64,000 nucleotides of DNA from Pseudanabaena sp. BC1403. GTDB lineage: Bacteria > Cyanobacteriota > Cyanobacteriia > Pseudanabaenales > Pseudanabaenaceae. Position numbers and translations under genes: made by a program. Below, piece by piece: positions 35,786-46,337 of the stretch (position 1 is the stretch's first letter; each line of letters starts with the position of its first letter). Location of the stretch: NCBI RefSeq assembly GCF_002914585.1, contig NZ_PDDM01000008.1, forward strand, positions 62,001 to 126,000, given 5' to 3'. The notes under the pieces were generated by a model. That model searched no databases and was not told where the DNA came from. It saw only the letters and a program-made list of their open reading frames with translations.

Positions 35786-38700
35786 ATGGTGCAAGAACTC
35801 ACCCTCCTCTCCAAAGAGGTCAGATTCCCCGACAGCGCTCCTGCCGCTTATCCTGTATTTTTCAGGACATATAGCCGTAAATATAATAACAAACGCGAAA
35901 GCTGGGCTGAAGTATGCGATCGCACACTTTCAGGTTTAAAGACGCTCGGTAAGCTGACCCAAGAGCAAGCTGACCTGATCGACAAAATGCAGAAACAGCT
36001 CAAGTCACTCACTTCTGGACGTTGGCTGTGGGTTGGCGGTACGGAATGGGTCGATCGTCCCGAAAATTTCTCAGGCTCTTATAACTGCACTAGCACCAAT
36101 GTGATCGACTGGCGCTCCTTTGGCTTGATGATGGATCTCGCCATGCAAGGTTCTGGTACTGGCGGCGTATTAGAGCCTCAGTACATTAGCCAATTGCCCG
36201 TAATTCGTAACCAATTGCAAGTGAATGTAGTCGGTGAGATCGGCGCAACACCTGTTAGCGATCGCCGCCACAATACCGAGGTCGAATTTGACTATGCCAA
36301 CAATGCCGTTAAGTTCTTCGTTGGTGATAGTCGTCAAGGTTGGGTCAAGTCCTACCAATCGCTATTAGAGCTATGCAGCGATGAAAAGTTTGACGCAGCT
36401 AAGCCTGTCCAAGTCACTGTTGATATCAGCGATGTGCGCCCCAGTGGTGAAGCCCTCAAAGGTTTCGGCGGTATGGCAAATCCTGTTAAGTTGCCTACGC
36501 TTTACGATCGCTGCGCCAATATTTTAAATAAAGCGATCGGTCGTCAACTCACCTCAGTCGAGTGCTGCATCCTCATCGATGAAGCCGCAGTTTGTATCGT
36601 GGCAGGGAACATCCGAAGATCGGCCGGCATGAGGCAATTCTCTTCAGAAGATGCGCTCGGCTCTGTCGCAAAGGATAATCTCTGGCAGCAGGATGAAGCG
36701 GGTAACTGGCGTATCGATCCTGAGCGTGATGCTTTGAGAATGGCAAACCATACTCGCGTATTCCATCGCAAGCCGACTGAACAAGAATGTGTTGATGCTG
36801 TTCGTAAGCAATACTATTCGGGTGAAGGGGCAATTCAATGGGCGGGTGAGGCGATCGCACGTTCTAATGCGGACTTGATCACAACTCCCGAACTCAAGCG
36901 TGATTTCCTTGCTGCCTATGTGAAAGGAGAAGGGAAAGAATGGTTGCGATCGCAACAGACTGAAGTTTCTGAGCATGAGCTAGAGCATAGATTACAGCGT
37001 TATGCTCTGAATCCCTGTCTAACGGCTGATACATGGGTTCATACTGAGCATGGTGCAAGACAGATTAGTGATTTGATTGGTAAGCAAGTCGGTGTCTATG
37101 TGAATGGAGAACTCTTTAGCACGACAGCTGATGGTTTCTTTTTGACAGGTAACAAGTCTGTTGTGAGTCTCCAAACCAAGGAAGGTTTTGGACTACGATT
37201 GACAGAAAACCACCAATTGCTCAAGGTAACTGCTCAAACTCAGCACGCCCAATATACTGAGTGGGTAGAAACTAAGGATCTCAAAATTGGCGATCGCATT
37301 TTGCTCCATGACCACCGCGAAATCCAGTCTTGGGATGGTGAAGGAAGTTTTGAAGAAGGTTGGCTAGTTGGTAATTTACTTGGAGATGGTAGCCTTTATC
37401 AAACTCAGTGGAATGATGCAGCTTGTCTGCGCTACTGGGGTGAGACTAAGGAGGAAATGGCGAGTTATGCAATCAAGACCTTAGAATATGCCACCAATTA
37501 TGAGTCGCAAAACTCTACAGGGCATTATCACAAGCAGCTACAGCATCAAGTAATTAACTCGTCTGGTCTAGCCACCCTTGCCGCAAGATTTGGGCTTTCT
37601 CCTCAAAACAAAGTGCTGTCATCTGCGATCGAGAAAGCTAGTTATGCTTTCTATTGTGGATTTTTGCGCGGGTTCTTTGATGCTGATGGAAGTGTTCAAG
37701 GGAAGCAAGAAAAGGGTGTTAGTGTCAGACTTGCTCAAAGCAATCTGGAAACCCTGCAAGCTGTGCAGAGAATGTTAGCTCGTGTTGGAATTATTTCTTC
37801 TGTATACCAACAACGCCGCCCTGCGGGTGTACGCATGTTGCCAAATAGCGATCGCGAACTTGCTCCTTACATGTGTAAAGAACAACATGAGCTAGCGATT
37901 GCTAATGATAACTTGCAGCACTTTGCGACTACTATTGGCTTCCAAGATCCGCTGAAGGCAGCCCGTTTACAAGAATCATTGGGCAACTACTCGCGCAAAA
38001 TGAATCGTGAGAGGTTCACGGCAACGATTACAGGTATTACTGCTGATGGAGTTGAACCTGTATATGATTGCACAGTTCCTCAAGTTTCACGCTTTGATGC
38101 TAATGGTATTGTTGCTCACAACTGCGGCGAGATTCTTGGAGCAGATTTCCATTGCAATCTCTCTGAAGTACATCTTAATCTGATTAATCCTAAGGATGAA
38201 AAAGAACAGGAAGCAGCATTTAAAGCAGGGGCTTTATCAGTTGCATCACTTCTTAATCATCAATTCATCGAGAAGCGTTATCAATTTAGTCGTGATGTCG
38301 ATCCGATTGTCGGTGTATCCTTCACAGGACTATTTGACTTCTTCGTTCATGCCTTTGGTGTGGAATGGTTGCGTTGGTGGGAAGCAGGTCGTCCTGACAC
38401 CGTGCAAGGGCTAGACTTCAAAGAGAAGGAAGCTAATTATCTAAATCGCTGGCGCGAAATCGTACATCAGACGGTTTGGGAATATTGTGACTCGCATGGT
38501 TTACGCCGCCCGAATCGTTGCACGACAACTCAGCCTGCGGGCACGAAATCCTTACTGACTGGTGCTTCTCCAGGGTGGCATCCACCGAAGGCACAGCGCT
38601 TTATCCGTCGGATTACTTTCCGTAAGGAAGATCCTGTGGCGCGGGCTTGTATGGACTATGGCTATAGTATCATTCCTTCGCAATCGGATAAGGATGAGAA

Positions 38701-39196
38701 TGGACAATTGTTGAATGATCCTTTCGATCCGAGATGCACGGAATGGCTGGTGGAGATTCCTGTGAGCGTGTCTTGGGCTGACCTTGACGGTGCTGACAAG
38801 GTGGACATCAGTAAGTTCGATGTGATGGCACAGTTTGACTTCTATATGCAGGTGCAGAAGCATTACACTCGTCATAATACTTCCGCAACGTTGGAGTTAC
38901 GGGAGCATGAAATCGAGCCTTTAGGGAAGAAGATTTACGAAGCAATTCGTGATGATGAGGGTTATATCTCGGCAGCGCTATTGGCGCGTTTTGATGACCT
39001 CCAAACTTTCCCTCGTTTGCCCTTTGAGCCAATCGACAAGGAGACTTATGACAAGCTCAGTGCTGAGGTGCTAGTACGTCGCAAGTCCGATGACTTTTAC
39101 GCAAGTTTGTTGCGTTATGATTCGGGTGAGTTGATGGATGCTGGCCCTGCGGGTTGCGATTCTGATAAGTGTATGTTCCCTGAACAGAAGCCATAG
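35786..39196 (+). CDS. nrdJ: adenosylcobalamin-dependent ribonucleotide reductase with intein
   Basis: Class II ribonucleoside-triphosphate reductase, making dNTPs for DNA synthesis with a cobalamin-generated thiyl radical. The precursor is 1136 aa; removal of a 369-aa intein (residues 411-779) leaves a 767-aa enzyme of the Lactobacillus leichmannii RTPR type. Redox Cys in GSYNCTST, radical-site Cys in NP-CGEILGADFHC, and the C-terminal Cys pair in GCDSDKCMF are visible. The intein must splice for activity because it separates NP from the radical Cys. Single gene, no riboswitch seen in the 158-bp leader. Confidence 0.95.
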   Translation: MVQELTLLSKEVRFPDSAPAAYPVFFRTYSRKYNNKRESWAEVCDRTLSGLKTLGKLTQEQADLIDKMQKQLKSLTSGRWLWVGGTEWVDRPENFSGSYNCTSTNVIDWRSFGLMMDLAMQGSGTGGVLEPQYISQLPVIRNQLQVNVVGEIGATPVSDRRHNTEVEFDYANNAVKFFVGDSRQGWVKSYQSLLELCSDEKFDAAKPVQVTVDISDVRPSGEALKGFGGMANPVKLPTLYDRCANILNKAIGRQLTSVECCILIDEAAVCIVAGNIRRSAGMRQFSSEDALGSVAKDNLWQQDEAGNWRIDPERDALRMANHTRVFHRKPTEQECVDAVRKQYYSGEGAIQWAGEAIARSNADLITTPELKRDFLAAYVKGEGKEWLRSQQTEVSEHELEHRLQRYALNPCLTADTWVHTEHGARQISDLIGKQVGVYVNGELFSTTADGFFLTGNKSVVSLQTKEGFGLRLTENHQLLKVTAQTQHAQYTEWVETKDLKIGDRILLHDHREIQSWDGEGSFEEGWLVGNLLGDGSLYQTQWNDAACLRYWGETKEEMASYAIKTLEYATNYESQNSTGHYHKQLQHQVINSSGLATLAARFGLSPQNKVLSSAIEKASYAFYCGFLRGFFDADGSVQGKQEKGVSVRLAQSNLETLQAVQRMLARVGIISSVYQQRRPAGVRMLPNSDRELAPYMCKEQHELAIANDNLQHFATTIGFQDPLKAARLQESLGNYSRKMNRERFTATITGITADGVEPVYDCTVPQVSRFDANGIVAHNCGEILGADFHCNLSEVHLNLINPKDEKEQEAAFKAGALSVASLLNHQFIEKRYQFSRDVDPIVGVSFTGLFDFFVHAFGVEWLRWWEAGRPDTVQGLDFKEKEANYLNRWREIVHQTVWEYCDSHGLRRPNRCTTTQPAGTKSLLTGASPGWHPPKAQRFIRRITFRKEDPVARACMDYGYSIIPSQSDKDENGQLLNDPFDPRCTEWLVEIPVSVSWADLDGADKVDISKFDVMAQFDFYMQVQKHYTRHNTSATLELREHEIEPLGKKIYEAIRDDEGYISAALLARFDDLQTFPRLPFEPIDKETYDKLSAEVLVRRKSDDFYASLLRYDSGELMDAGPAGCDSDKCMFPEQKP
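37016..38122 (+). mobile_element. LAGLIDADG homing-endonuclease intein in nrdJ
   Basis: In-frame intein of 369 aa. It begins with Cys (CLTADTWVHTEHGARQISDL, block A), has the block B TxxH (TENHQLLKV), two dodecapeptide endonuclease motifs (WLVGNLLGDGSLY and FLRGFFDADGSVQ) and ends GIVAHN before the +1 Cys, so all splicing residues are present. Both endonuclease Asp residues are intact, so it may still be able to home. The insertion is immediately before the radical-site cysteine. Confidence 0.95.
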
Positions 39197-39258
39197 ATTG
39201 CAAAAATAGCATATAGGTGTTGCTACAATAGCGATCAAAACTTGTAGTAAACACTTAT

Positions 39259-39480
39259 ATGCTCTCTCAACAAATATCAGGATTTCAAGAAGCATTAAAT
39301 GCGATCGAGTCTTTGTCTTTAGATGATCAGTTAGCGTTGCTAGATGTATTGCATAATCGATTGAAACTGCGTCAACGTCATCAAATTGTGCAAGAAGTAC
39401 AAGAAGTGAGGCAAGAATTTATGGAAGGTAAGTTTAAGAGTGGTTCTGTTGATGACTTTTTAGCGGAGCTAGATCGTTGA
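39259..39480 (+). CDS. putative antitoxin of a RelE-type module
   Basis: 73-aa acidic/helical protein. AIESLSLDDQLALLDVLHNRLKLRQ is the pattern common to short antitoxin-like proteins of cyanobacteria, and a long Glu/Gln-rich helix follows (QEVQEVRQEFMEGKFK). Its stop overlaps the TTG start of the toxin gene, so the two are translationally coupled. I infer the antitoxin role from position and size. Confidence 0.8.
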   Translation: MLSQQISGFQEALNAIESLSLDDQLALLDVLHNRLKLRQRHQIVQEVQEVRQEFMEGKFKSGSVDDFLAELDR

Positions 39481-39755
39481 GAAATATTAATTGGACAGCT
39501 AAATCTTTGAGGGCTTTTAAAAAGCTAATTCGCAAGAATCCACAACTAAGACCACAACTTGAGCAGACTTTGCGTCAATTGGCAGGAGATCCTTTTCATC
39601 CTAGTCTCAGAACTCACAAGCTGATTGGAGATTTATCGGATGTTTGGTCTTGTTCTGTGGATTATAAATATCGAATACTATTTGAATTTGTTCAAGATAC
39701 TGCCCCTGAAAATATCCTTTTACTAAACGTAGGATCGCATGATGAGGTTTACTAG
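39477..39755 (+). CDS. RelE/YafQ-like toxin
   Basis: 92-aa protein of the RelE/ParE fold: INWTAKSLRAFKKLIRKNPQLRPQLEQ, then LIGDLSDVWSCSVDYKYRILFEF and the C-terminal NILLLNVGSHDEVY. Such toxins cleave mRNA at the ribosome or poison gyrase; RelE-type is more likely here. It starts with TTG, overlapping the antitoxin stop by four bases, which would keep toxin yield low. Its end overlaps the next small gene. Confidence 0.85.
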   Translation: MRNINWTAKSLRAFKKLIRKNPQLRPQLEQTLRQLAGDPFHPSLRTHKLIGDLSDVWSCSVDYKYRILFEFVQDTAPENILLLNVGSHDEVY

Positions 39756-39987
39756 AGACCTAGTTAAGCAAGCAATTCGGTTACAACAAATTGTAGAAGA
39801 AGATGGTGAAATCTATCTATCTGGGTTGCCTGTAGTAAAAGGGCAAGAGGTTGAAGTAATAATTTTATTTTCTCCTTTGACTGAGTCTAAAAAAACTTTT
39901 ACTGCGCGTCAATTACTGGATTCTGGGTTGATTGGTATGTGGGAGAATCGGATGGAGCTAGGTGAGGATAAAAAACATGTTAATTAA
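39742..39987 (+). CDS. small antitoxin-like protein overlapping the toxin gene
   Basis: 81 aa from ATG 39742 (ATG 39739 also possible). Sequence MRFTRDLVKQAIRLQQIVEE, then EIYLSGLPVVKGQEVEVIILFSP. This beta-strand-rich pattern is like swapped-hairpin (AbrB/DUF-type) antitoxins of cyanobacteria. It overlaps the RelE-like gene at its 5' end and the next gene at its 3' end, so four small genes form a chain. Assignment by context. Confidence 0.55.
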   Translation: MRFTRDLVKQAIRLQQIVEEDGEIYLSGLPVVKGQEVEVIILFSPLTESKKTFTARQLLDSGLIGMWENRMELGEDKKHVN

Positions 39988-40162
39988 GGAAAGATCAAGT
40001 GAACTGAAGATTATTGTTAAATCTATAGATGCTCTCAATATAACTGAGCAGTTATGGCTTTTGGAGCATATAGCGCATCAAATTCGGATTAAGAATGAAT
40101 TAGCGTCAATGGCACAAGATCCGCAAATTCAAGCTGAGCTTTCTCAAATTAATATGAGTTGA
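39977..40162 (+). CDS. small antitoxin-like protein
   Basis: 61 aa starting MLIKERSSELKIIVKSIDAL and continuing ITEQLWLLEHIAHQIRIKNE. It has the same S-I/L-x-L-x-x-Q-L-x-L-L-E pattern as the antitoxin at 39259, so it may be a diverged second copy whose toxin is gone or encoded elsewhere. It overlaps the preceding gene by 11 bp. Confidence 0.55.
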   Translation: MLIKERSSELKIIVKSIDALNITEQLWLLEHIAHQIRIKNELASMAQDPQIQAELSQINMS

Positions 40163-40202
40163 TGAAATTAATTATCTTAATCGTAACTAAACCTGAAAAA
40201 CT

Positions 40203-41069
40203 ATGCCTAGTCCTTCTACGACAAATCTTCCGCGCCCTAAATCTTGGGATGAATTTGAGGATATATGTACTGATGTTTTGAAGAAAGTGTGGGGAGTCCC
40301 CTATTTATCCCGTCATGGTCGTTCAGGGCAAAGACAAGATGGAGTAGATATTTATGGATGCCCTAAACATCTAGGAGGATATGATTATGCTGGTGCACAA
40401 TGCAAGGAGACAGATAGCCTATGCATTACAACTATTGAGAAGGAGATAATAAAAGCCGAAAACTTTGATCCTCTTCTCAAAGAGTATTTGATAATGACTA
40501 CAGCACTAAGAGATGCAAAGTTACAAGCAGAAATCCGTAAACTGAATAGAAAATTCAGAGTTCACATATTATTTTGGGAAGATATAAGTCAAGAGTTATC
40601 AGGACATACTGATTTACTGCAAAAACACTTTTCTGGATGGGTGAAATTAACGACTACTAAAGATCAAGTTCTTGATCAGATAATGCGTTCTCAGCCAGAA
40701 GATTTCGACTACAATGACGAAACAGGAGCATTTTTTCATTCTAGGGATATTAAACTTCAAATAGTTCTAGACTACGATATTGAAGAAAGATTTATCGAGC
40801 CTTGGATGAATTGCTTTGCTAAAGAGGATGGAATGAGATTACCAGTTTATATTTACTATGAAGGAACAAGAGTTTTCGATGTCTTATGTATTTGTGTAGA
40901 TAATAGACATAGAATCCCAATTCCAAAAAGTATTAACAATTTAACTATTAGCGATTTTGCTTATCATCTAGGTCTTATTATTAATCATCCACTTAAAAAA
41001 ACTAACCCATCATGGGATACTTTTGATAATGCATTGATGAGAGCAGGAATTTCTATTCGAGATGAATGA
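40203..41069 (+). CDS. Mrr-like PD-(D/E)XK nuclease candidate
   Basis: 288-aa protein. The N-terminal 165 residues look like a restriction-endonuclease (Mrr_cat) fold: SWDEFEDICTDVL helix, GRSGQRQDGVDIYG with D49, and YAGAQCKET with Q66-x-K68, the D...QxK catalytic signature. The C-terminal 120 residues (HSRDIKLQIVLDYDIEERFI through PSWDTFDNALMRAGISI) match nothing I know and could be a sensor or partner-binding domain. It lies among toxin-antitoxin genes, 40 bp after the last small gene, so a defence role is a fair inference but unproven. Confidence 0.65.
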   Translation: MPSPSTTNLPRPKSWDEFEDICTDVLKKVWGVPYLSRHGRSGQRQDGVDIYGCPKHLGGYDYAGAQCKETDSLCITTIEKEIIKAENFDPLLKEYLIMTTALRDAKLQAEIRKLNRKFRVHILFWEDISQELSGHTDLLQKHFSGWVKLTTTKDQVLDQIMRSQPEDFDYNDETGAFFHSRDIKLQIVLDYDIEERFIEPWMNCFAKEDGMRLPVYIYYEGTRVFDVLCICVDNRHRIPIPKSINNLTISDFAYHLGLIINHPLKKTNPSWDTFDNALMRAGISIRDE

Positions 41070-41317
41070 TTCTCAGATGTTTTCTCTAAGAAATTATTGA
41101 TTAGGATATTGATGATTTCTTAGGCAATCGCATTGCAAATCGTAGGCTAGACTTATATATAATTTTGTCTAACTACTTAACTACTATATTTTCTAAGATG
41201 ATTGCTCAAGAGTTTTTGACCTTCAACTAAAATTGAAAAGATACATAATAAAAGTCAAGCCAAGTTAACTAAATAGAGTCGAAAAATTTATTTTTATCTA
41301 AAAATCGCTATAACTTT

Positions 41318-41827
41318 ATGATGTTAATTAACGAAGAAGAACTCGTATCATCAAAACGTGGTAAATGGTCTACTGCTGGTATTCCACATAAAGGTTGGGT
41401 ATGTATAGATATTGAAGACTTAGGTGAACCTGTAATAGAATGTGAAATGTGTGAATCTCAAAAGATTCGATTTGTTCATTATATGAAACATCCTGAATAT
41501 CAAAATGGAGATGGACTTCTTCAAGTTGGATGTATTTGTGCGGGACATATGGAAGGAGATCTAAGTGCATCCCACGCACGTGAAGCATCCATGAAAAGCC
41601 GCGCAAGCAAACGTAAGCGTTGGACATCTAGGGCTTGGAAAATATCTAGCAATGGGAATCCTTTTATTAATGCCGATGGTTATAGAACTACCATTTATCG
41701 ACGTGCTGATGGTTGGGCATGGACAGTTGCTGATCATTTGACTGTTTCCCATGCTCGGCGTAATTTCAAGACAAGGGATGAGGCAAAGCTTGCAGCCTTC
41801 GACCACATGACTAAACTTTTGTCATAA
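41318..41827 (+). CDS. cysteine-rich protein of unknown function
   Basis: 169-aa basic protein. The middle has a probable zinc-binding site: IECEMCESQKIRFVHYMKHP with CxxC, then LQVGCICAGHME with CxC and His. A basic linker (SRASKRKRW) and a C-terminal beta domain with GYRTTIYRRADGWAWTVAD follow. I do not recognise the family. Isolated in the accessory block, with 248 bp of gene-free DNA upstream. Confidence 0.65.
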   Translation: MMLINEEELVSSKRGKWSTAGIPHKGWVCIDIEDLGEPVIECEMCESQKIRFVHYMKHPEYQNGDGLLQVGCICAGHMEGDLSASHAREASMKSRASKRKRWTSRAWKISSNGNPFINADGYRTTIYRRADGWAWTVADHLTVSHARRNFKTRDEAKLAAFDHMTKLLS

Positions 41828-41862
41828 GTTGTAAATACAAGCCCTAGTAAAAGATTCCTACT

Positions 41863-41952
41863 ATGCAGACAAACCAAGTAACTGTAAATTTATCTCTACC
41901 TTTTGAATCGCTCATTGAAATGATACGATCTTTGCATACTCCAGCAAGTTGA
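41863..41952 (+). pseudogene. possible antitoxin fragment
   Basis: A 29-codon frame, MQTNQVTVNLSLPFESLIEM and then IRSLHTPAS. Its beginning looks like the start of common cyanobacterial antitoxins (V-N-L-x-L-P-F-E-x-L), then it stops abruptly. Probably a truncated remnant; low certainty. Confidence 0.35.
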
Positions 41953-42017
41953 GTTAAATCTTCCTGACATGAAATATTCTTATCAAATACACTTTAGAAT
42001 TAATAGAGAATACAAAA

Positions 42018-42257
42018 ATGCCAAGCCTAACACTAAGTAACGAGCAAGTTGTAGAACTTGTTAAACAACTACCACAAGAACAAAAAACAGAGATTTTTAG
42101 ATTCCTATTACTTTCTCAATGGCAGCGCTGGCAAGACTTATCTAGCTATGGCGCGGATAAAGTTAAACTTGCTGCTAAAGAGCGTGGCTATGACTGGGAA
42201 AAGATGTCAGAAGAAGAAAGAGAACAATTGATTGATTCAGTTGTCCACGAAAAATAG
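42018..42257 (+). CDS. small antitoxin-like protein
   Basis: 79-aa protein, MPSLTLSNEQVVELVKQLPQ followed by EQKTEIFRFLLLSQWQRWQD, ending with an acidic tail. The pattern of a short strand followed by a Q-L-P-x-E-x-K helix is typical of stand-alone antitoxin-like proteins in cyanobacteria. No toxin gene follows directly. Role inferred from pattern and context. Confidence 0.6.
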   Translation: MPSLTLSNEQVVELVKQLPQEQKTEIFRFLLLSQWQRWQDLSSYGADKVKLAAKERGYDWEKMSEEEREQLIDSVVHEK

Positions 42258-42446
42258 TGAAATACATAATGGTTATCGAATGCGCTGTAGTCTGTAACAC
42301 AAGCCATATAGTCATAGGAGACAAACATCTTTTATCACTTGTTAAATATCAGGACATTGCGATCGCTAAAGCTACTGATTTTGTTAATTTATTCTCTTAG
42401 ATAGCGATCGACTATGGTGCAGCCAAAGCCAAACTTTAAACGGGGT

Positions 42447-42499
42447 GATATTTTGATTTATTAGGCGATCGCATGGCAAAGCAGAGACTATGCGATCGC
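42447..42499. repeat. 53-bp direct repeat, left copy flanking brnTA
   Basis: Matches 43048-43100 at 49 of 53 positions by my count, same orientation. It begins GATATTTTGATTTATT and contains GGCGATCGCATGGCAAA, ending in a HIP1 octamer. Confidence 0.85.
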
Positions 42500-42524
42500 T
42501 TTCAATACTTGTTAAAATAAACTG

Positions 42525-42797
42525 ATGAAATATGAGTGGGACGAAAACAAAGCAGTCAAAAACTTGGCAAAGCATGGAGTTTCTTTCTCCGAAGCCAAAA
42601 CCATCTTTGACGATCCGCTATATGTTGATTTCTATGATCTAGACCACTCAGAAGACGAAGAACGTTACCTAATTGTCGGCGAATCAAATCGAGGACGATT
42701 GTTAATCGTTTCCTATACAGAGAGAAGAGAATCAATTCGGATCATCAGTGCCAGAGAAGTTACAAAATCGGAGCGTGAAGCATATGAAGAAGGCTGA
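42525..42797 (+). CDS. brnT: BrnT-family toxin
   Basis: 90-aa RelE-fold ribonuclease toxin of the BrnT family. Signature MKYEWDENKAVKNLAKHGVS, then FSEAKTIFDDPLYVDFYD, EERYLIVGES, RLLIVSYTERRESIRIISAR and the terminal KSEREAYEEG. BrnT arrests translation under stress until neutralised by BrnA. Its 3' end overlaps brnA by 14 bp. The module sits between 53-bp direct repeats. Confidence 0.93.
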   Translation: MKYEWDENKAVKNLAKHGVSFSEAKTIFDDPLYVDFYDLDHSEDEERYLIVGESNRGRLLIVSYTERRESIRIISAREVTKSEREAYEEG

Positions 42798-43038
42798 ATT
42801 AGAACTAGAAGATGACCTTAGACCCGAATATGACCTTAAAAGTCTGCATGTCAGAAAACTAGGCTCAGGACGTAAGAGCTTTGGTGGCTCAATAGTGCGC
42901 TTAGAACCTGATGTCGCCGCAATATTTCCTAGCGCCGATGCAGTAAATGAAGCTCTAAGATTCTTGATTAGAGTTACACAACAAAACCAACCCACTAAGG
43001 TTCCAACATTATCTAACACTCAGGAAAATAATCTGTAG
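42784..43038 (+). CDS. brnA: BrnA-family antitoxin
   Basis: 84-aa antitoxin that binds BrnT and represses its own operon. MKKAELELEDDLRPEYDLKS is the linker that wraps the toxin; the C-terminal part (VRLEPDVAAIFPSADAVNEA then LRFLIRVT) is the ribbon-helix-helix DNA-binding domain. Start ATG 42784 lies inside the end of brnT. Confidence 0.9.
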   Translation: MKKAELELEDDLRPEYDLKSLHVRKLGSGRKSFGGSIVRLEPDVAAIFPSADAVNEALRFLIRVTQQNQPTKVPTLSNTQENNL

Positions 43039-43047
43039 TGTGGTAGC

Positions 43048-43100
43048 GATATTTTGATTTATTGGGCGATCGCATGGCAAATCAGAGAATAAGCGATCGC
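43048..43100. repeat. 53-bp direct repeat, right copy flanking brnTA
   Basis: Partner of 42447-42499; begins 10 bp after the brnA stop. The two copies bracket exactly the toxin-antitoxin pair and its promoter. Confidence 0.85.
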
Positions 43101-43143
43101 CCAAACATCTCTCCACCAAATGTTAATAAAGCTGCTTTGATGT

Positions 43144-43959
43144 TTAGAAGGAAAGCCCAAGAGCCAAGCAAGAATTATCTGAGGTAGCACTAAGACTGTA
43201 GGATTGTGTTTCAATTGTTTTCGCAACTACCAGCATATCCTTGCCAAAAATCTTACCGTTAATATTGCAACTTCCTTTGAGGACAAGCAGGTAATTTCCT
43301 AAGTACTTATATCTTATCAAGGAAGTACTTTTAATAATCTTAGAACTCATTCCACCCTTAGGATCTACAGGAACATCATATACTTTAACACCTGCTTGGG
43401 AATAGTTAAATGTATGATTTCGCTCTAAATCTGGGTCAGCCGTATTGATTTGAACGGGAGTGTATGGCTTGATCTTGTCAGTATTAGAAAAGTCAGGTGG
43501 TGAAGCATAGGCAAGGATAAAGAACCCTGTACTATTTGTGATTTTATGACCACTTTCAGGTGGATTAAAATAAAGAGAACCTGTAGGATAAACACCTTTA
43601 GCATCGGTTTGTGTACCATCAATTGTATAGACAGATTCAGTCATCGAATGATAATGGAGTCCGACACTCCCATTTGGAATTGTGTACCATAGGATGCTGA
43701 TATGCTTAGAGTCTGCTGTACCAGATAGAATAAGCTTCTCTAGATTGGGTCTGAAGGTAAAAAAATCGTATTTTTTAGGATTAGCGATGAGTTCCTTGAG
43801 ATCGATAATGTTTGATTTGCTCAAAGCGGAATCTTTGTCACGGAGAGCGATCGCAGAACTGCGTAAATTGTTTGCGAGGACGGTGTTTGCATGAAGACTA
43901 AAGCCAACTGAAAAAAATAGCCCCATCGCCAAAAGGGGAATTCTAAATAGTTTCATCAC
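43144..43959 (-). CDS. secreted cupin-domain protein
   Basis: 271-aa protein with a signal peptide (MKLFRIPLLAMGLFFSVGF through NTVLANN). The mature part contains a cupin: GSVGLHYHSMTESVYTIDG and GVYPTGSLYFNPPESGH give the HxH...E...H metal-site pattern. A second cupin-like half follows (about 190-265), so it may be a bicupin. Substrate unknown. ATG 43956 is an alternative start. Confidence 0.75.
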   Translation of the reverse strand: MMKLFRIPLLAMGLFFSVGFSLHANTVLANNLRSSAIALRDKDSALSKSNIIDLKELIANPKKYDFFTFRPNLEKLILSGTADSKHISILWYTIPNGSVGLHYHSMTESVYTIDGTQTDAKGVYPTGSLYFNPPESGHKITNSTGFFILAYASPPDFSNTDKIKPYTPVQINTADPDLERNHTFNYSQAGVKVYDVPVDPKGGMSSKIIKSTSLIRYKYLGNYLLVLKGSCNINGKIFGKDMLVVAKTIETQSYSLSATSDNSCLALGLSF

Positions 43960-44138
43960 TGCTCACTCTTTCACATATTGAGATAGATATAGTTAGCTCA
44001 GAAAGTATCATGGAACCTACTGATTTATCTGACCGAATTGCTACAGAATAATTTATATTTTTTATGTTCAAAAAGTAAAAACAGAGCTACTGAGTCATGC
44101 TGTTTCAAGTTGGCATGGGCATAAAAAAAGGTAGCGCT

Positions 44139-44187
44139 AAATAGGTAAGGATGGGCAGCACGAAGCGCCGCCCATCCTTACCTATTT
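44139..44187. terminator. long GC-core hairpin
   Basis: 18-base arms (44139-44156 and 44170-44187) with a GCAGCACGAAGCG-type loop. It directly abuts the composite repeat beginning at 44189. Confidence 0.65.
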
Positions 44188-44188
44188 A

Positions 44189-44292
44189 ATACCAATTCAC
44201 AGAAGTATTGTCACACTTTTGTGAATTAAAAAGCAAACCTCGTAAGGGTTTTAAAAGCGCAAAGTGGCGTAGCCACTTTGCGCTTTTAAAAC
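44189..44292. repeat. composite palindromic repeat, copy 2
   Basis: Same order as copy 1 (19913-20015): ATACCAATTCACA, a small palindrome, GTAAGGGTTTTAAAAG, then an AAAGTGGC/GCCACTTT stem. The right TTGGTAT end is replaced by TTTTAAAACC. Confidence 0.7.
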
Positions 44293-44363
44293 CATTTCCT
44301 TTTTAGGGCTACCAAAGAAAAGACATTCATAGAAGAAAGACCCGCAATGCGAGCCTTTCTTGA

Positions 44364-46337
44364 TTAAATCACGCGATCGTTACCGCCATCAATGGGAACT
44401 TGAGCCGCAGTCGTACAGGCAAACAGCGCACCACACATCTCCGCCGCAAGTTCGGCGACATGGCGACTAGTGACTTCTACTTTGAGTAGATTATTGGTTT
44501 TATATTCCTCAACCGTTAATCCATAATGCTGAGCGCGAGATGTCAATACATCCTCTGTCCAGATGCCAGTATCAAAGACTGCATTGGGATGTAAGGTATT
44601 GATACGAATGCGATCGCTACTCCATTCCAGAGCCGCCACCCGCATCAGTTGCGTTAACGCCGCCTTCGAGGCAGAATATGCGGCGGCAGCAGGGCCAGGG
44701 GCAGGAACATTCTTAGACCCGATCGCAACGACGCGACCGCCATTGGGTGCAAGTTTCAGCAATGGATAACATTCACGCATCAAAATTAAATTTGCATCGA
44801 GATTGATATGCATTACCTTTTGCCATGTGGCAGTATCAAGATTTTCAATGCGACAGCCAGATGGAAAGATTCCTGCATTGAGAATGAGGATGTCTAGACC
44901 ACCAAAGGATTTGACGGCTTGATCCAGCGCATTAGCGATCGCAGATTCATCACTGACATCGCAAGTAATACCGACAAAATCTGGGCGATCATAAAGCTTC
45001 TCAATCTCAGGATTGATATCTAAGCCCACGACGGCTGCGCCGCGTTTTAGTAACGAATCTACGCAAGCTTTGCCAATACCTGAAGCCGCACCCGTAACTA
45101 GTGCAATTTCACCAGTAAACACAGGAGCAGAACCACCTTTTTTGAGTTTGGCTTGTTCTAATTCCCAATATTCTACTGCAAAGATATCACTGGCAGGTAA
45201 TGCTTGATAGCCACCTAAAAGTTGCGATCGCTGGATGATTTCCATCGTGTGTTCGTAGATATCCGCGACGATTGCCGCATCTTTGGCGGATTTGCCAACT
45301 GTGACTAGCCCTAATTGGCGATCGATAATTACACGGGGGGCAGTATCAAGGATTGTTACAGATTGGGTTGACTTAGCAGATTCTTCCGCAAAATAGGTGC
45401 GATAGGATTCAGCATAAGCTTTTACATCTCTCCCAACTAGGGGCAAGCGCTTAGTACGAATGACGTGATCGGGAGTCGCACAGCCCTGTTGCGAAATGAT
45501 GTTTACATCTTTCCTTTGCGCAAAGGCTAAACTTTTTTCGTCCGCATGAGAACTTAAAACCACGGGAAACTCTGCAACTTGAGAAACTTCAGAGCGGAGT
45601 TTGGCGATCTCTAATCTTGCAGCACTTTCCCTAATTAGAGATGCAGGTGGTGAGATCTCCCAAGCATGATGTTCTTGAAGATAAACTTCAGCACGATCAA
45701 CCAAAGCAATCATTCGCTCATAGGATTCATGAGCCGTTTCACCAAAGGAGAAAATACCATGATTCATTAACACCATGCCGATGGTGCGATCGCTCTTCTC
45801 AGCGGCAAACTTCTCAGCGCAGACTCTTGCTAGGTCAAATCCTGGCATCACGTAGGGAATAATCACCACATCATCGCCGTATATTTCTTGAATTCGCTCC
45901 CATCCATTCGCCGTATTCGTTACCGAAATTACCGCATCCGCATGGGTGTGATCAACAAATTTATAGGGCAAACTGGCATGGAGAATTGTTTCCACCGATG
46001 GCGCAGGTGCACTTGCCTTGGTCATCTGAGTTTTCAGTTCATTCACCATTTGTGAATCGGAGAGAACTTGCAACTTGGCTAATTTCAATAAATGCGCCAT
46101 GCGGACAGGGGCAAAACCTGCCTCTGCGATCGTTTCTAAATCCCAGCCACTTCCTTTTACATAGAGAATCTCTTCTTCTTCACCAACAAGATTCTGCTCA
46201 CGGATTTTGACGGAAGTATTCCCACCACCATGCAGCACCAACGATGGATCTCGTCCCAGTAGCTGTGAGGTATATACTCTTAATCCCAAATCACCTTTAT
46301 ATTCCGCAGCCTCGCGATCGCTCCACAAACTTTTCAT
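44364..46337 (-). CDS. bifunctional class II aldolase / short-chain dehydrogenase (RhaD-type)
   Basis: 657-aa fusion. The N-terminal class II aldolase/adducin domain (about 1-400) has zinc-ligand motifs LPYKFVDHTHADAVISV and LMNHGIFSFGETAHESY. The C-terminal SDR domain (from about 410) has ALVTGAASGIGKACV, LILNAGIFPSG and the YSASKAAL active site. This architecture is that of rhamnulose-phosphate aldolase/lactaldehyde dehydrogenase proteins, but no rhamnose genes are nearby. ATG 46337 is chosen because a GAGG ribosome site precedes it, whereas the longer frame starts near a hairpin. ridA lies upstream in the same direction. Confidence 0.9.
   Translation of the reverse strand: MKSLWSDREAAEYKGDLGLRVYTSQLLGRDPSLVLHGGGNTSVKIREQNLVGEEEEILYVKGSGWDLETIAEAGFAPVRMAHLLKLAKLQVLSDSQMVNELKTQMTKASAPAPSVETILHASLPYKFVDHTHADAVISVTNTANGWERIQEIYGDDVVIIPYVMPGFDLARVCAEKFAAEKSDRTIGMVLMNHGIFSFGETAHESYERMIALVDRAEVYLQEHHAWEISPPASLIRESAARLEIAKLRSEVSQVAEFPVVLSSHADEKSLAFAQRKDVNIISQQGCATPDHVIRTKRLPLVGRDVKAYAESYRTYFAEESAKSTQSVTILDTAPRVIIDRQLGLVTVGKSAKDAAIVADIYEHTMEIIQRSQLLGGYQALPASDIFAVEYWELEQAKLKKGGSAPVFTGEIALVTGAASGIGKACVDSLLKRGAAVVGLDINPEIEKLYDRPDFVGITCDVSDESAIANALDQAVKSFGGLDILILNAGIFPSGCRIENLDTATWQKVMHINLDANLILMRECYPLLKLAPNGGRVVAIGSKNVPAPGPAAAAYSASKAALTQLMRVAALEWSSDRIRINTLHPNAVFDTGIWTEDVLTSRAQHYGLTVEEYKTNNLLKVEVTSRHVAELAAEMCGALFACTTAAQVPIDGGNDRVI

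Follow-up and report, generated by a model that had tools for sequence, protein, structure and literature searches.

A BrnT gene pair as a probable exchangeable cassette of a repeat-bordered array behind nrdJ in Pseudanabaena

The BrnT toxin gene and its partner in the 64,000-nucleotide stretch of Pseudanabaena sp. BC1403 analyzed here (the window) are probably one of the exchangeable cassettes in a hypervariable array of toxin-antitoxin and defense genes behind nrdJ, with homologous recombination at a short repeat and in nrdJ moving cassettes between species. The array, an empty site in a relative, many-to-many cassette neighbors, interspecies similarity of the cassette and a decoupled nrdJ 3' end were all observed. 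RecA-type recombination, a circle step and natural DNA uptake are what we infer from these sequence comparisons; ComEC is present.

The BrnT cassette and its repeats

The original prediction, that 53-bp direct repeats bracket a toxin-antitoxin pair, was borne out to the exact coordinate. The two copies are identical at 49 of 53 positions (92%), have a spacing of 601, and are both intergenic, one on each side of brnT and the overlapping partner ORF (Table 1). By an independent-base estimate, about 2e-15 such repeat pairs are expected by chance in a 64-kb window. When the host genome (5.5 Mb, 88 contigs) was searched with the 26-nt left half and up to three mismatches, only the two window sites were found, and the reversed control gave no matches. 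A 53-position model found the same two copies in the host genome at E 3.7e-16 and 1.5e-17; after the divergent third copy listed in Table 1, everything else had E values of at least 9.5e-4.

The repeat contains two HIP1 octamers (GCGATCGC). HIP1 occurs 124 times in the 64-kb window against about 1 expected occurrence, an abundance that speaks for a cyanobacterial origin; this cyanobacterial octamer is not known to have a function. A conserved hairpin was rejected for the repeat since RNAalifold gave 6 pairs with none covarying; the alignment holds no conserved dyad. Rfam gave two weak matches on 39000-45000, both under their gathering scores. There are no inverted repeats of 16 nt or longer in 41500-44100, which bears on a MITE or IS-derived origin.

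The cassette toxin has the BrnT ribonuclease domain. Compared with the BrnT/BrnA type II toxin-antitoxin system, the window BrnT is a clear family member, whereas its partner matched none of the BrnA models of Pfam and NCBIfam (one irrelevant Pfam match, E 0.19). The partner is thus a putative antitoxin, for which the name BrnA is taken from position and size; brnTA is used below for the pair.

Table 1. Features of the nrdJ array in the window
Feature	Coordinates	Strand	Basis or remark
nrdJ, class II (B12-dependent) ribonucleotide reductase	35786..39196	+	Pfam RNR-II insertion domain; 3' end is the proposed left recombination anchor
Two-gene module, second gene a ParE/RelE-like toxin	39259..39755	+	PF05016 E 1.8e-6; pair recurs in other nrdJ islands
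288-aa protein without family match	40203..41069	+	common to G008, in the same kind of position
Divergent third repeat copy	41113..41150	+	53-position model E 3.1e-5; also detected by nhmmer
Decayed module: antitoxin-like ORF (79 aa) and last third of PIN partner	42018..42400	+	homology to relatives
MazF-like gene-start remnant, directly 5' of the repeat	42410..42446	+	compared by eye with the beginning of a complete mazF-like gene of G021
53-nt repeat, copy 1	42447..42499	+	HIP1 at 42465 and 42492
brnT toxin gene	42525..42797	+	PF04365 E 2.2e-29, 102 bits, cut-off 34.5
84-aa partner gene in brnA position	42784..43038	+	ATG at 42784; overlaps brnT by 14 nt; position
53-nt repeat, copy 2	43048..43100	+	HIP1 at 43066 and 43093
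Cupin-domain gene, last cassette of the array	43144..43959	-	PF12973 E 1.6e-7

An intein at about 37018-38121 of nrdJ was placed by a LAGLIDADG_3 match and by extein mapping, with Intein_splicing slightly below its cut-off. In relatives, nrdJ carries no insertion, one or apparently two, at differing places. The proteins at 40203-41069 and 41318-41827, which had no Pfam, NCBIfam or PADLOC match, also occur together in G008 and are possibly new defense genes. The PIN remnant corresponds to residues 93-135 of the 135-residue protein of relatives, whose intact form matches PIN_3, and the MazF-like start remnant is found elsewhere in the genus too. Plasmid or phage carriage of 42018-43960 was rejected since no match was found, and viral contigs searched with a strict 27-nt repeat pattern also gave none.

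The nrdJ array across the genus

With the 53-position model, strong copies of the repeat (E < 1e-10) were found in 16 of the 26 Pseudanabaena genomes. Beyond the genus only G027, from another genus of the same family, has them, and there were none in the remaining 31 of the 58 genomes searched; because of strict filters and the scoring of 100 candidates per genome, these counts are lower bounds. A strict 30-nt pattern matched at least four named GTDB contigs, all of them Pseudanabaena. In 14 of the 16 genus genomes and in G027, the copies share a contig with nrdJ and follow it at a distance of about 1 to 6 kb; the repeat contig of G017 is without nrdJ, and the copy in G024 is not near a recognized nrdJ. 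In G018, G020, G023, G025 and G027 there are solitary copies at other places, and those of G018, G023 and G025 represent one shared site followed by sequence that resembles a hicA end by eye. Random occurrence across the genome, which would have spoken against a relation between the repeat and module borders, was not seen in the host genome; other genomes hold a few solitary copies.

Twenty-four regions were mapped, most of them behind nrdJ, and 17 of these regions contain 47 repeat matches. Typically nrdJ is followed by small modules, often by one large defense-like gene, and then by cassettes, with the repeat standing between many of them. The families recognized among chosen proteins are PIN toxins, ParE, Fic/Doc, HicB, PemK/MazF and glyoxalase, with further matches to a macro domain with DarT, AIPR/AbiU, a DpdF-like helicase and DUF4209. 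Some modules are given the putative names HicA, ParD or VapB from their position, as Pfam matched just their partners. It had been suggested that other cargo might lie between the same repeats, and at least 10 further kinds of module (labels assigned by hand) do border the repeat in relatives. Genes outside toxin-antitoxin systems, a cupin gene and a glyoxalase gene, are among its neighbors, and no partner gene is common to all. Copies of 30 bits or more have a single orientation per locus: the strong ones are oriented as nrdJ, and a few weak opposite ones adjoin opposite-strand genes. Many of the genomes are drafts, and the few-contig genomes G020 to G023 give the same pattern.

The islands of G001, G002, G006 and G015 hold such modules without any repeat, and that of G006 includes a HEC-06-like protein. 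Since these four islands have modules but no repeat, cassettes turn over without the repeat as well.

Several other observations were made around the arrays. Four draft contigs (L055, L056, L067 and L068) terminate within about 1.3 kb behind nrdJ, where islands are perhaps breaking the assemblies. To the right, the arrays of G013, G018 and G019 adjoin chromosomal genes (L091-L120) that a search with three right-hand flanks located at different places in the other genomes; the arrays coincide with rearrangement breakpoints. Small ORFs near nrdJ-type islands (L036, L040 and L043) look like chimeras of two ORF families, which suggests recombination inside genes too. Among the literature matches listed, no title concerned the shuffling of such cassettes or toxin-antitoxin/HIP1 islands in Pseudanabaena or cyanobacteria.

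Probable cassette exchange and the position of crossovers

An empty site with a single 53-bp copy, as the original prediction had led us to look for in relatives, is present in G011. There the window flanks 41993-42267 and 42361-42499 are joined to 43048-44125 by one repeat, and brnTA is absent. The order is decayed antitoxin/PIN module, repeat and cupin gene, with about 90% identity to the window on either side; G011 additionally lacks a 93-nt piece of the decayed left gene, and its homology to the window stops at 44125, beyond the cupin gene. The same brnTA is carried 1.85 kb further on in G011, in a different slot. Together with the other cargo, this site supports the proposal that the module moved, or was gained or lost, through the repeats; at this slot, gain and loss both fit the empty site.

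Neighbor relationships were compared with module labels assigned by hand, partly from flanking sequence, in 38 tabulated copies from 17 genomes; 9 partial or divergent copies of the 47 matches were omitted and some other partial ones retained, and the label c10 pools modules with an identical 3' end. There are 31 distinct left-right neighbor pairs in this table. The brnA gene has 5 kinds of right neighbor, and brnT has 8 left labels, one of which is a gene remnant while another precedes only a brnT remnant. In all eight genomes that hold brnTA the nearest recognized left neighbor differs, a count in which the brnT of G022 is broken and the neighbors in G013 and G023 are different pieces of mazF-like genes. 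Alignment ends also gather in the repeat. Among 592 interior ends from 313 alignments of at least 150 nt, 64 fall inside the repeat in both sequences (500 shifted controls: mean 0.25, maximum 3) and 117 fall in the repeat of either sequence (controls: mean 23.8, maximum 57), with the qualification that ends are not independent of one another.

The brnTA pair is more alike between species than glyS is. In seven other genomes it is 91-98% identical to that of the host (in G022 over part only), whereas glyS of the same seven is 76-84% identical. G000 and G011, for example, have 96% identity in brnTA and 76% in glyS, and G000 and G014 have 98.1% in brnTA and 90.8% in the 1029 nt of the nrdJ 3' end. 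Identities of brnTA and the nrdJ 3' end are uncorrelated (rho -0.25, p 0.20; 28 pairs, 8 genomes). This similarity argues that transfer between species does happen.

The left anchor was examined by comparing nrdJ with glyS in 12 genomes against the host, omitting nt 1230-1650 and G023, whose nrdJ 5' part is outside its region. Nucleotides 1-690 of nrdJ track glyS (rho 0.81, p 0.001; third positions 0.85), whereas nt 690-1230, 1650-1980 and 1980-2301 are decoupled from it (rho 0.14, -0.50 and -0.36). Along the gene, the identity of G008 with the host drops from 0.97 to 0.93 and that of G011 rises from 0.83 to 0.93. We read this as probable replacement of the nrdJ 3' end through recombination with a genus-wide pool. 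Under constraint, identities might level out, but the identity of a close relative should not decrease. Constraint could still account for part of the pattern. Since inteins or similar insertions are frequent in nrdJ, intein homing, which also replaces adjoining sequence, may contribute as well.

Within the repeat, the 38 copies show a switch near position 26: sequence before it is associated with the left module and sequence after it with the right module, which points to the internal HIP1. Two cassette types whose right arms differ account for most of this signal. Among the 29 copies that have the common right arm, positions 34-42 are linked to neither neighbor (same versus different module: left 0.69 vs 0.75, right 0.70 vs 0.75). 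Positions 43-53 of these copies have a weak right-module link (0.91 vs 0.86; reached by 29 of 500 permutations), and positions 10-18 have a left-module link (reached by 2 of 500). Because positions 34-42 are linked to neither module, crossovers seem to use whatever homology is shared, and homologous recombination is favored over one fixed point.

Two clean HIP1-to-HIP1 joints were found, one in G011 (vapC|brnT) and one in G019 (repeat|hicA remnant); at the position of the former, G010 has vapC, HIP1, a gene remnant and the repeat. That HIP1 acts generally where islands break was unsupported, as its enrichment at alignment ends outside the repeat was not clear (22 of 1037 vs 1.4% in controls). 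Elhai (2015, PMC4390886) describes the small dispersed repeat SDR5, which is reported to insert precisely in HIP1, and notes some evidence that HIP1 is linked to site-specific recombination and none for homologous recombination. Links between HIP1 and recombination had been suggested earlier (PMC4390886).

Explanations and known systems

In the mechanism we favor, each cassette is a gene or gene pair, and in many cases a single 53-nt repeat sets it apart from the next. The arrays of different species therefore have brief stretches of homology to one another at numerous borders, and a long one in the nrdJ 3' end. Incoming DNA, either from another species or in the form of a circle excised by recombination between two repeats, would enter at a repeat already in the array, by ordinary homologous recombination. 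A single crossover with such a circle would turn "repeat" into "repeat-cassette-repeat", and the reverse crossover would delete the cassette and leave a single repeat. Occasional joints on the 8-bp HIP1 alone would create half repeats. Counting against this mechanism, a stretch of 53 bp in which about 8% of positions mismatch is short for RecA to recombine efficiently, and the switch near position 26 in the 38 copies would also suit crossing over at one fixed point. Neither an excised circle nor a rearrangement in progress was observed.

A fixed crossover point is part of an explanation that we consider unlikely, in which the repeat is a site-specific recombination site crossed over at its internal HIP1, in the manner of an integron and with a recombinase of its own acting on it. 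Left linkage does end, and right linkage start, at about positions 25-27 in the 38 copies, the copies are oriented with nrdJ or, where weak and opposite, lie beside opposite-strand genes, and a tyrosine recombinase over the Pfam cut-off (PF00589) is encoded in 25 of the 26 genus genomes and could act from elsewhere. However, the middle of the right arm is linked to neither neighbor in the 29 copies, so crossovers also occur beyond the core; the internal HIP1 is intact in just 30 of 38 copies, HIP1 is far too frequent to form the whole site, and no dyad covaries. Among the PF00589 matches listed for the 26 genus genomes, none lies in a mapped island, the nearest being about 22 kb before nrdJ in G020. 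Resolvases were rejected as the array enzyme, with 0 of 20 matches in an island. The array is apparently without a recombinase of its own at the site. A more specific proposal, that a dedicated cassette system uses HIP1 as its core for crossovers, has no integrase or one of a new kind, and trades toxin-antitoxin and defense genes between species at one chromosomal address, is quite unlikely.

It is decidedly improbable that cassettes are exchanged through long homology elsewhere and that the repeat, as a passenger or a regulatory element (a cassette border, operator or terminator), is copied along with them. Such homology is available in nrdJ, the repeat lies directly upstream of -10-like boxes in several cassettes by eye, and four islands turn over without it, but the pile-up of alignment ends in the repeat goes far beyond the controls, and the repeat also borders the cupin and glyoxalase genes with no common partner. 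Most improbable is one large ancestral array whose present differences reflect vertical descent and differential deletion between repeats. Decayed modules and half repeats are common, and the empty site alone suits deletion as well as gain. However, order differs and not presence alone, as seen with the left neighbor of brnTA in 8 of 8 genomes (hand labels), and brnTA of G000 and G011 is nearly the same despite their divergent glyS; cassette order and interspecies identity largely refute this explanation.

Exchange of cassettes by homologous recombination at the repeat and nrdJ, as we favor, invites comparison with several known systems. The repeat is short and intergenic like the cyanobacterial small dispersed repeats and HIP1. 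Unlike dispersed repeats it occupies a single locus in the genome of the host, and in contrast to SDR5 it contains HIP1 instead of being inserted in it. The locus is a concrete natural place for probing the part of HIP1 in recombination. A pdif (dif) module would be expected to have XerC/XerD half sites and a dyad. The Pseudanabaena repeats, in contrast, are direct, lack a conserved dyad and lie at a chromosomal locus, and a 28-bp XerC/XerD site with a dyad at each end is missing, as judged by the lack of a dyad in the alignment. On Acinetobacter plasmids, toxin-antitoxin modules and others that are delimited by short pdif sites are reported to be shuffled (PMC13141974, PMC6449649), a likeness to the array.

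The closest likeness is to integron cassette arrays (attC/IntI), above all sedentary chromosomal ones. In both, small cassettes rich in toxin-antitoxin and defense genes stand in tandem and in one orientation, separated by a repeat and reordered between relatives; here one site per cassette, a shared orientation and variable order were found, with some island borders lacking the repeat. Membership was rejected, since the repeat has neither R boxes (RYYYAAC...GTTRRRY) nor a covarying fold and has HIP1 inside instead, the attC sites of the genus differ, and no array integrase was found, either among the PF00589 matches listed or with TIGR02249, which had no match in the mapped nrdJ islands of 27 genomes. 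Among these 27, of which 17 are from the genus, TIGR02249 integron integrases passed the cut-off in 12; the host has them below the cut-off only, the best being a fragment at C48:20546-20827. Integrases over the curated cut-off occur in several Pseudanabaena and other genomes of the class (L077-L083: G013, G005, G002, G011 and G010), and in G013 the integrase is followed by classical-looking 86-nt attC-like sites unrelated to the repeat. These integrons away from the arrays are a useful internal control. If the favored reading is true, the nrdJ locus would be an integron-like array without an integrase of its own, in which a shared border repeat and a conserved anchor gene suffice for a genus-wide trade in defense cassettes.
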